From Thermoplasmata archaeon (GTDB taxonomy: Archaea; Thermoplasmatota; Thermoplasmata; Thermoplasmatales; Thermoplasmataceae): DNA of 40,694 nt. The stretch lies in NCBI GenBank assembly GCA_021800105.1, contig JAJYZI010000005.1:1-40694 (forward strand), read 5' to 3'. Both the position numbers and the translations under genes were made by a program. Below are positions 21,255-24,619 of the stretch, piece after piece; the first letter of the stretch is position 1, and the number at the start of each line of letters is the position of its first letter. The notes below the pieces were generated by a model that worked only from the letters and a program-made list of their open reading frames with translations, had not been told where the DNA came from and searched no databases.

Positions 21255-22781
21255 TTAAGCTTTTGTTGTCTTTACAGAGGCTTCCTTAGTGCCTCCCATT
21301 ACAAGGCTCCCGACGATAGCAATGAGCAGGTTTACCAGTAGTGCTATTAGTCCAATGTAAATGAAGCTGAAAGGAGTAGCGAATTTGAAGAATGTTGTCT
21401 GCAACGAAGGAAGATGGGCTATGAAGAAGTTAGCATCAAGGATCATGTAAACCCCAGTTATCATACCCGCAGCCCAGCCTACGCCAACTGCGTACTTATT
21501 GAGTCTCTTCGTGTACATTCCTATGAATATCGCAGGAAGCGTCTGAAGAATTATGATTCCTCCAACGAGCTGTAGCTCAAGGGAATAGGTCGCAGAAATT
21601 GCAAAGATAAATGCAAGGGCAATGAATTTAAACATAACTGAAAACCATTTAGAAAGCCTAGCTTCAGTCTTAGAGTTCATGTTCGGTCTGGCGACCTTAA
21701 CAACATTCCTAGTAAGCAGGTTTGCCTGGGATATGGCCATTATAGACGCAGGCACAAGACCGCCAATGAAGATACCAAGGAAAGCGAAACCGACAAACCA
21801 GTCAGGAAACTCGGCGTATATCAGTGATGGTACAACAGTAACTGCACCGTATTTTGCAACATCTCCCAATGCAGATGGGACGGCATAAATGAGGATTCCA
21901 AAAAGTGCAAGAAGCGCAAGTCCAACTCCATATATTGGAAGAAGGGCAGTACTCAATCTAAGGCGTTTAGTCGAGTTAGTGCTGAATACACCATTTATCG
22001 CATGCGGATATAGATATAGGGCTAGAGCACTCATTATTGTAAGTGAGATAAAGCCATTGAGGTACAATCCAGCTAACGTCGATGTACCGGTTGCAAGAGT
22101 TTTTGCATCAGTAAACGCAACCGCGAAACCGCCGATTCTCATTGGAACGACTACAATTATTACTATTACGCTGGCAAATATTATTGCGTCTTTCATCACT
22201 GCTGTAATTGTGGCGCCCCTTAGTCCACTGGTAAAGGTAAAGGCCGCCAGAACTATGAAGGAAACTATAAGGGCAATCTCTGTAACTATATTTGCGTCTG
22301 TAGTGGTCAGGTGGCCGATCATTACTGTTAGAACTGCCTGCATTCCATAAATTTGGAGTGCTATATAAGGTAGCTCTGCCACAATTCCTGTGAAAGCGAG
22401 CAATATTGCCAGGGTCTTACTGTTAAATTTATCTTGCACCATGTCTATTGCTGTAACATAGTTTTTGCCTTTCGCCATTCTCCAGAGCCTCGGCATAGTA
22501 ATCATTGCAATACCGAACGTCATTCCGACGTATGGGACTGCATAGAAGTAAACTGCACCTTTCTCATACACCAGTTCTGGTATTGCAATAAATGTGTATG
22601 CTGTATACAGATCTGCACCCACGAGGAACCATGCAAGGTAACCACCAAGCTTTCTCCCCGCAAGAGCCCACTCGCCTAAATCACTCATGTCACCTCGTCT
22701 GAATCTTGATGAGCCGAATCCCAGCGCAACAAAGACCAGGAAGAGGGCCACGAAAACAGAGAGTATAATGTAATTATTCAC
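21255..22781 (-). CDS. Sodium:solute symporter family transporter
   Basis: 508 aa, about 13 TM; WALAGRKLGGYLAWFLVGADLYTAYTF and following SSS-family pattern. Confidence 0.9.
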   Translation of the reverse strand: MNNYIILSVFVALFLVFVALGFGSSRFRRGDMSDLGEWALAGRKLGGYLAWFLVGADLYTAYTFIAIPELVYEKGAVYFYAVPYVGMTFGIAMITMPRLWRMAKGKNYVTAIDMVQDKFNSKTLAILLAFTGIVAELPYIALQIYGMQAVLTVMIGHLTTTDANIVTEIALIVSFIVLAAFTFTSGLRGATITAVMKDAIIFASVIVIIVVVPMRIGGFAVAFTDAKTLATGTSTLAGLYLNGFISLTIMSALALYLYPHAINGVFSTNSTKRLRLSTALLPIYGVGLALLALFGILIYAVPSALGDVAKYGAVTVVPSLIYAEFPDWFVGFAFLGIFIGGLVPASIMAISQANLLTRNVVKVARPNMNSKTEARLSKWFSVMFKFIALAFIFAISATYSLELQLVGGIIILQTLPAIFIGMYTKRLNKYAVGVGWAAGMITGVYMILDANFFIAHLPSLQTTFFKFATPFSFIYIGLIALLVNLLIAIVGSLVMGGTKEASVKTTKA

Positions 22782-23035
22782 TGCGAGTCGCCTCCCTCCA
22801 TCCTGTTAAGCATTAGAGCGGCTATTACATAGAAGACAGCAGAAACTACTAACCAAATTGTCTCAAACCAGTAAAAAAATGGCAGCCCAAGCAATGTTGG
22901 TTTGTCCTTATTGTATAAGGGGGTAATACCAAATATCAGCATTGGGAAGATAAGTAATATTGCGACTATCACTTTCTGTCCCGTTGTTCCCTTGGCGCTA
23001 TAGTTCCAGCCTGTATCTGACTCTTCAGATGACAT
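22778..23035 (-). CDS. DUF3311-type small membrane partner of the SSS symporter
   Basis: 85 aa, two TM, overlaps the symporter start; FPMLIFGITPLYNKDKPTLLGLPFFYWFETIWLV is characteristic. Confidence 0.8.
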   Translation of the reverse strand: MSSEESDTGWNYSAKGTTGQKVIVAILLIFPMLIFGITPLYNKDKPTLLGLPFFYWFETIWLVVSAVFYVIAALMLNRMEGGDSQ

Positions 23036-23140
23036 TTTTTGACCTCACCACTTGCACTTGATTTCTATATATAAATATTTTTATTAATTCTATATTGGCG
23101 GAGATACATTGTCATGCTGTAGCAGGGCATTTCGTTTATC

Positions 23141-23152
23141 AAATATATAAAG
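23141..23152 (+). promoter_or_regulatory. Archaeal TATA box candidate for an intergenic plus-strand transcript
   Basis: aaatatataaag within an otherwise less AT-rich segment; no plus-strand gene begins immediately downstream, but a structured element does (23190-23399). Confidence 0.45.
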
Positions 23153-23189
23153 GGGAAGCAAAGATTTCAGTTGCTGTACGAAAGTAAAT

Positions 23190-23399
23190 CAATTTGTAGG
23201 CTAGTCAGAAGGATGTCATGCTCACACCTGGCATGGCTAGGTACTCCTCTGAAAAGTAAGGTGGTTAATGGTTTCAGAGGAACTTTTCTAGGGAGAAGTT
23301 GGTGTGTCTTCAACAAGCCCATGCTGTCCTCAGGGTCTCGAAGCGTAAGAAAACCGATGCCCTTCCGAGGTTCGCAACTAAAAATCAACCAGCCAATTG
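23190..23399 (+). ncRNA. Candidate structured non-coding RNA of unknown family
   Basis: Closing helix CAATT(tgta)GGCT 23190-23202 with AGCCAATTG 23391-23399; stems GTCATGC/GCATGGC (23215-23221/23231-23237), TCCTCTGAAA/TTTCAGAGGA (23245-23254/23272-23281), AACTTTTC/GAGAAGTT (about 23281-23288/23293-23300), CCTCaGGG/CCCttccGAGG (23328-23335/23360-23370). Strand from TATA at 23141. Confidence 0.45.
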
Positions 23400-23500
23400 T
23401 TATATCCTGAAATACAAATCACGCGGAACAGCAAGTCACTCCATCGAAGAGTAGGTAGTTGACTTGATTTAATTATCGTTCCTTGAGCTATAGTATAATG

Positions 23501-24619
23501 TTAAATTGAATTCCCTTCATTGGGCTGAAAAGGACAGACAGGATCCTCTGCGAAGACTTCACTTCTGTAGAAATATGCCCTTGCTCGACTCCCACCACAA
23601 ACCTCAAGATACTGGCATACACCGCACTTACCAGTTATATTAGATTTATCCCTTATTCTTTTTAGTATCTCGCTCTTCTCATAGACTTCAACCAGTCGCT
23701 TATCAAGTATATTCCCAACATCAAGAGGGAGGAACCCGCTGGGCCTGACGCGGCCGTTGTGCGAAACGAAGATGATGCCATTTCCATCTGAGGTCTTAGC
23801 TACCGGAATTCTGTCTTTTCCATGCTCTGGGTAGCCGCATAATTTTACTGCCGTTTCCTTAAGTTCTGAAAAAAGCCTGTTATTTTCCAGACTCACATCA
23901 TTGTTATGGTCAATTGATAGCTTTCTGAAGTAAGGTCCTTCAACAGTTCTTATATTTATTCCATAACCTGCGGCGTAGACAAGAAATTTGCATGCAGCAT
24001 CATACTGTTCTGAGGTTACATCCTCTACATCCATCCCTCTTCCAACCTTGATCAGGAAAAATATTTCCCAAGTTTTTATTCCAATCTCAAGTAAGATTTT
24101 CAACACCCATGGAAGGTCCATCAGGTTATTTCCTGAGACCAGCGTGTTAACCTGTACGTTCATTCCAGAATCTTTGAGTGCTCTTAGCGTTCTAATGGTC
24201 TTTTGAAAAACACCAACCCCTCTGAGATAATCATGGAACCCCTCCTTTCCATCAAGGCTGATGGAGATAGATGAAGCACCTGAACTCTTTACTAGATCGA
24301 AGCTACCCTCATTGCCAAGGCCAGTAACAGCAGGGCTAAGGGCAAATGGTATCTTCAAATCTCTTGCATGGTTCATTATTTCTGCAAGATTTTGCTTTTT
24401 CATGACATCCCCTCCGGTCATAATCAAAACAGGCGGTTTACCGTTGAATTCAGTGAGCTGGTTTAAGAAATCTATTGACTGATCAAGAGTTAACTCATCT
24501 TCTGCAGGAAGCTTCATAGACGTTGCCCTGCAATGCCTGCACGTTAGATCGCAGGCTTTTGTGGTTTCCCAGAAAACAAGAAGTGGCCTTGATTGATATC
24601 CGGAGGCTATATTTTCCAT
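23501..24619 (-). CDS. Radical SAM/SPASM-type protein
   Basis: CDLTCRHC (CxxxCxxC) cluster motif, TGGDVM, and C-terminal Cys-rich CGVCQYLEVCGGSRARAYFYRSEVFAEDPVC typical of SPASM/twitch proteins near AhbD/NirJ-like families. Confidence 0.88.
   Translation of the reverse strand: MENIASGYQSRPLLVFWETTKACDLTCRHCRATSMKLPAEDELTLDQSIDFLNQLTEFNGKPPVLIMTGGDVMKKQNLAEIMNHARDLKIPFALSPAVTGLGNEGSFDLVKSSGASSISISLDGKEGFHDYLRGVGVFQKTIRTLRALKDSGMNVQVNTLVSGNNLMDLPWVLKILLEIGIKTWEIFFLIKVGRGMDVEDVTSEQYDAACKFLVYAAGYGINIRTVEGPYFRKLSIDHNNDVSLENNRLFSELKETAVKLCGYPEHGKDRIPVAKTSDGNGIIFVSHNGRVRPSGFLPLDVGNILDKRLVEVYEKSEILKRIRDKSNITGKCGVCQYLEVCGGSRARAYFYRSEVFAEDPVCPFQPNEGNSI

Follow-up and report, generated by a model that had tools for sequence, protein, structure and literature searches.

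Guide RNAs encoded in trans, without an adjacent nuclease gene, have been mentioned for IscB, a nuclease related to TnpB. The guide RNA bound by TnpB of ISDra2 consists of the tnpB 3′ end, the right end of the element and ~16 nt of flanking sequence (PMC8612924), and TnpB is thought to cut the joint left by excision, which leads to the element being copied back (PMC8612924, PMC11870625). HqIRS71, one of the palindrome-associated transposable elements (PATEs) of Haloquadratum walsbyi, includes part of the tnpB C-terminal region (PMC3119063). The structured RNA RAGATH-18 adjoins IS607 TnpB in 64% of cases, while about a third of its copies do not (PMC11061315).

The window (the whole 40,694-nt stretch analysed here, contig C98 of genome G000, which is 70% complete) contains a region at 23141–23400 that was originally predicted to be a novel structured ncRNA gene with its own TATA box. 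It is flanked on the left by a DUF3311 gene (22778–23035, minus strand) and on the right by a radical SAM gene (23501–24619, minus strand). A structured RNA family does lie behind this region, but the window carries only a decayed copy of it and no intact ncRNA gene. The best explanation as a whole, which we hold with somewhat more confidence than doubt, combines a decayed tnpB-less mobile element with a guide-RNA role for its intact copies.

A family of tnpB-less elements and the decayed copy in the window

The sister genome G002 is the only one with a full-length homologue of the region, and a sensitive order-wide search yielded one further match, in another genus (G058; 76% over 91 nt, window 23311–23401, blastn E 1.5e-10). 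This place in G058 holds a repeated element that is matched in 36 of the 117 genomes of the order, from 17 genera, some of these matches being tnpB 3′ ends. Element matches occur at up to seven places per genome, several of them at contig ends, and near-identical copies lie at different sites within each of G102, G064, G069, G089 and G008. Intact members are about 370–430 nt long and consist of a left-end hairpin beside TTTAT or TTAT, an AT-rich promoter-like stretch, an RNA core of ~200 nt and a 96-nt right module; G102:C50:4436–4719 (minus strand) and G111:C1:710126 are examples. TTTAT or TTAT precedes the left-end hairpin in 21/24 copies, as it does in tnpB elements, and no duplication is seen at the right ends listed, which indicates a fixed target without duplication. 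The right ends (GTAGTTGAC) and the subterminal palindromes at both ends, comprising two left-end types and a right-end hairpin, are also as in tnpB elements; the palindromes are degraded in the window copy. The left part of the element matches the region upstream of tnpB, and a conserved segment of ~200 nt that starts TGTCCACACCTGAAATGGTAAGGCACTC...GAGTAAGACGGTTAAG occupies the place of tnpB and is missing from tnpB elements. Solo copies have no tnpA or tnpB gene and feature only C-terminal TnpB remnants (HMM 353–384). Derivation of the core from tnpB codons was considered and rejected, as only the last 96 nt align and a common ATGCCTCAAG stretch noticed by eye was unsupported. Given these mobility signatures, the family is almost certainly a non-autonomous, tnpB-less element of the IS200/IS605 type, of which the window holds a decayed copy.

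Further arrangements were found elsewhere in the family. In two genomes of one genus (G111 and G114; L136 410–909 and L142 407–901) the element occupies one shared position directly upstream of a tRNA gene, and this copy is therefore older than the divergence of the two; the adjacent tRNA gene has an apparent intron-length insert. At L226:1456–1573, L230:1479–1595 and L239:1415–1528 there is little beyond a left end joined to a right module, with about 120 nt matched, and both core and tnpB are missing; these short elements are terminal-only derivatives like those described for PATEs. At G109:C1:950703–952268 (L244), a broken tnpB with the common 3′ module is preceded by a weak match to the core, about 1.3 kb away and on the same strand; this could reflect either a nested insertion or the relic of an element with both core and tnpB.

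The window copy as a whole spans about 23141–23464 on the plus strand and thus continues beyond the 23400 limit first given to it. TTTAT at 23136..23140 (plus strand), on the host side of the left junction, is the target site and putative TAM. The degraded left end (23141..23213, plus strand), whose homology was assigned by position and not by alignment score, gives a TTTAT-to-core spacing of 73 nt, against about 84 nt in intact copies. It includes the TATA-like aaatatataaag at 23141; this sequence is indeed there, but it sits at the left tip of the mobile element, directly after the TTTAT target, and is not the TATA box of an intact ncRNA gene. The degraded RNA core (23214..23384, plus strand), recognised by covariance model, blastn and alignment A2, begins TGTCATGCTCACACCTGG where the family begins TGTCCACACCTG, and about 24 nt near 23267 have been deleted. 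Core covariance model R1 scores it at 25.1 bits (E 3e-4, 23219–23327), while good copies reach 130–177 bits. Alignments and comparison with tnpB 3′ ends place the right module, which is common with the tnpB 3′ end (ATCAACCAGCCAATTGTT), at 23385..23464 (plus strand); its internal part is missing and its right end reads ...CAGCAAGTCACTCC..GAGTAGGTAGTTGAC. The adjacent host flank (23465..23484, plus strand) would be the guide if the copy were active, as judged from its position and by analogy with the TnpB guide RNA (PMC8612924).

Consensus pairing is partly lost at this site, with 26/45 pairs formed in the window and 25/45 in G002, compared to 63/63 in the best copies. Divergence between G000 and G002 amounts to 11.7% in the core and 18.8% in the right end, against 11.5% at third codon positions of the radical SAM gene. 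The incomplete pairing and this near-neutral divergence indicate that the window copy is probably dead. The neighbouring genes are 170 bp apart in G003, which lacks the element; no base-exact empty site was found there, the G003 flanks being too diverged for one. Most simply, the window copy is a decayed insertion that is older than the split of G000 and G002. G000 has a second copy on contig C9, where a better-preserved core (81–87 bits) lies at G000:C9:4822–4978 (L164, L204) and, with similar flanks, at G002:C46:11399–11555 (L162). This core has no recognisable right module and is another old, truncated insertion.

The stems named in the original prediction are all present in the window, but lie outside the conserved structure of the family: a perfect 10-bp TCCTCTGAAA/TTTCAGAGGA (23245–23254/23272–23281), a 7-bp GTCATGC/GCATGGC with one G-U pair (23215–23221/23231–23237) and an end pairing of CAATT..GGCT (23190–23202) with AGCCAATTG (23391–23399). 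In the end pairing, the conserved AGCCAAT of the right module has a partner other than the one it has in the family, and the 10-bp stem connects two segments from different helices of the family fold. A perfect 10-bp stem is mildly unusual (1.5% of region shuffles; 5/329 windows of the contig). In the G002 homologue, which is 89% identical and at the same place, a C-A mismatch interrupts the 10-bp stem and one pair is gone from the 7-bp stem. Folding of the region itself turned out to be ordinary, with z −0.90 on the plus strand and z −0.40 on the minus strand. The stems were rejected as a functional fold because G002 does not keep them intact and the family does not share them; they are mostly accidental. 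It is very improbable that the window holds a host-owned gene for a structured ncRNA that is active and transcribed from the TATA box at 23141, since the TATA-like sequence, the stems and the shared position in G002 that speak for it have to be set against the lost consensus pairs, the near-neutral divergence, the breakage of the stems in G002 and the ordinary folding energy.

The suspicion that two overlapping ORFs (23171..23410, plus strand; 23167..23388, minus strand) are non-protein-like is borne out. Both exist, neither has a Pfam match, and differences between G000 and G002 fall on the three codon positions as 6/10/10 and 9/4/10. Their protein-coding reading was rejected, and the region is taken as non-coding, because there is no Pfam match and third positions show no excess of differences. 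An AT-rich palindromic stretch, tatatataaatatttttat, lies at 23060–23085 just upstream of the minus-strand DUF3311 gene and is almost identical in G002; it is likely to be the promoter of the DUF3311–symporter pair.

Known RNA families do not account for the region. Rfam 15 returned nothing in the window at the gathering threshold and nothing relevant at E 10, and at the element in eight related loci its only match was the neighbouring tRNA. The archaeal SRP RNA (RF01857) and RNase P RNA (RF00373) models have no window match; these RNAs are encoded on other contigs of G000 (C97 and C89, respectively), in agreement with the original reading that the region is neither. A tRNA/tmRNA search found none, and plasmid and phage collections gave no match. 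A pattern match in an Actinomycetota bin (L177) was taken as chance, the core being absent by nhmmer. In the open-access literature searched, we recognised no paper describing tnpB-less IS605 elements built on a conserved structured RNA, and none describing this RNA in Thermoplasmata.

A covarying RNA structure in intact copies

Intact copies in other genomes carry a structured RNA family that has no Rfam entry. An alignment of 24 copies plus the window supports a structure of 63 pairs, in which 88% of cells are paired, with one pseudoknot, GGAG/CTCC, that joins columns 169–172 and 203–206 of A2. Compensatory changes occur in 34/63 pairs, a result matched by 0/500 shuffles, and sliding the strands against each other destroys the signal. 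Among 38 class-wide copies, 30/32 core pairs show compensatory change and covariation is 0.603, compared to 0.232 after shuffling; this alignment was fitted to the model, while the 63-pair alignment was made from sequence only and is hence more independent. Folding of two good copies is more stable than that of shuffled sequences (z −2.3 and −2.6). Model R1 finds the core in 37/117 genomes of the order and in 40/399 of the class, nine of which lie outside the order; a search of a phylum sample with the core model found none outside the class at E 1e-4.

G-U pairs outnumber C-A by 135 to 53, which identifies the plus strand as the structured one. A minus-strand transcript was considered and rejected; the G002 copy has z −2.8 on that strand, but the window does not follow it, and the G-U-biased covariation favours plus. 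AT content peaks 19–31 nt before the core, which is the position of an archaeal TATA box if the RNA starts at the core, although the upstream TATA score barely exceeds that of shuffled sequences.

Instead of serving as RNA, the structure could act as single-stranded DNA during transposition, through folding of the excised strand or transposase binding, which would make the elements ordinary PATEs. Transposition of IS605 elements does proceed through single strands that bear terminal hairpins (PMC8612924), PATEs are a known case of non-coding derivatives of IS605 (PMC3119063) and only one strand is structured here. We nevertheless regard this as unlikely: tnpB elements with the same ends manage without the core, which is therefore not needed for mobilisation; a multi-helix domain of ~145 nt kept across the class goes far beyond terminal hairpins; and an AT-rich stretch lies 19–31 nt before the core.

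Helices link the core and the right module, with GGCTG/CAGCC paired in 94% and GGC/GCC in 84% of cases. Distant members have the same plan, in which core and 3′ module form one continuous conserved RNA, and their right ends match to the last base of the profile. This continuity, together with the helices that join both parts, makes it quite improbable that the core is a cargo RNA in its own right, for instance one with a host or regulatory function, which is simply carried along between IS605 ends, even though core similarity is class-wide whereas the ends follow local tnpB elements.

Link to TnpB and the proposed guide-RNA role

Full-length genes in L118–L120 encode TnpB (Pfam OrfB_IS605, Cas12f1-like_TNB), and the last 65–96 nt of the element correspond to the 3′ end of tnpB. 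The last 96 nt of tnpB match the right part of the family at 61–85 bits, with the core absent. By inspection, tnpB 3′ ends can form a stem followed by GGCTG/CAGCC, GTTGC/GCAAC and the right-end hairpin, which is also the order of these helices in the solo RNA. Similarity of the right module is 0.863 to tnpB of the same genus and 0.783 to other tnpBs (0/2000 permutations), rising to 99% within G102 and 96% within G064 and G009; in G102, whose TnpB is encoded at C13:281–1432, the left ends of the solo and tnpB elements are also near-identical. The RNA is present in 17/21 genomes with this TnpB subfamily, these being close matches chosen by eye (Fisher p 3e-7, uncorrected for phylogeny).

Since the tnpB-derived 3′ module tracks tnpB of the same genus, the RNA co-occurs with this TnpB subfamily and the ISDra2 guide RNA offers a precedent, we propose that the solo RNA of intact copies rather probably serves TnpB in trans as a stand-alone guide RNA. 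Intact copies would make an omega-RNA of ~290 nt from a promoter inside the left end, and its 3′ module would be the part that binds TnpB from an autonomous relative, with the host DNA past the right end serving as guide. TnpB could then cut the joint (TTTAT plus flank) left by excision, and repair would restore the element, as proposed for autonomous elements; mobilisation itself would depend on TnpA acting in trans.

Several observations count against a guide role. G111, a complete single-contig genome, has four core-model copies and only distant TnpBs (about 35% identical), and in G000 (70% complete) neither a TnpB from this subfamily nor a Y1 transposase was found. The guide model also leaves the function of the extra core domain unexplained. 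The common 3′ module and this conserved domain, which is missing from ordinary guides, could reflect an expressed RNA whose binding titrates TnpB, making it a decoy or regulator and not a guide for DNA cleavage. That seems rather unlikely, as the right ends are intact to the last base with host flank adjacent in guide position, which a decoy would not need (though transposition would).

If intact copies do make working guides, they represent a TnpB guide RNA uncoupled from its nuclease gene and travelling as cargo of its own mobile element. Such uncoupling would resemble the situation in CRISPR-Cas12, where guide and nuclease are separate, and would suggest how non-autonomous IS605 elements escape loss on excision. 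It is about an even call whether these are class-wide minimal selfish elements, composed of transposon ends and a guide-RNA gene with a new domain of ~200 nt, that borrow transposase and TnpB from autonomous relatives. The model, supported as it is by covariation, is suitable for curation as a new Thermoplasmata RNA family. The window copy is of interest only as the lead to it.

Comparison with PATEs and TnpB-associated RNAs

The closest kind of element is the PATE (PMC3119063). Like PATEs, the Thermoplasmata elements are short and transposase-free, with near-terminal palindromes of the IS605 type and a short target that is not duplicated (PMC3119063). PATEs are described as degenerate non-coding derivatives, and neither a conserved RNA structure nor a role as guide is reported for them (PMC3119063), whereas the interior of the Thermoplasmata element is a class-wide covarying RNA with no detectable derivation from tnpB.

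RAGATH-18 of IS607 TnpB is likewise a conserved structured RNA, and proved to be a TnpB guide scaffold, but it is a different RNA from a different IS family and occurs mostly in Firmicutes (PMC11061315). The closest kind of RNA is the TnpB omega-RNA or reRNA (PMC8612924), along with the haloarchaeal sotRNAs RF02656 and RF02657 (PMC12558985). The family shares with omega-RNAs a conserved RNA structure, of which the window copy falls short (26/45 pairs), as well as plus-sense orientation and a 3′ module formed by the tnpB 3′ end and right end and followed by host flank, which would be in guide position by analogy. It differs from omega-RNAs and sotRNAs, which come from tnpB transcripts, in belonging to solo elements without tnpB, in its extra 5′ domain of ~200 nt and in having no Rfam match. 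The solo RNA would therefore work like an omega-RNA without being an ordinary member of that class, as it is not encoded by any tnpB transcript.
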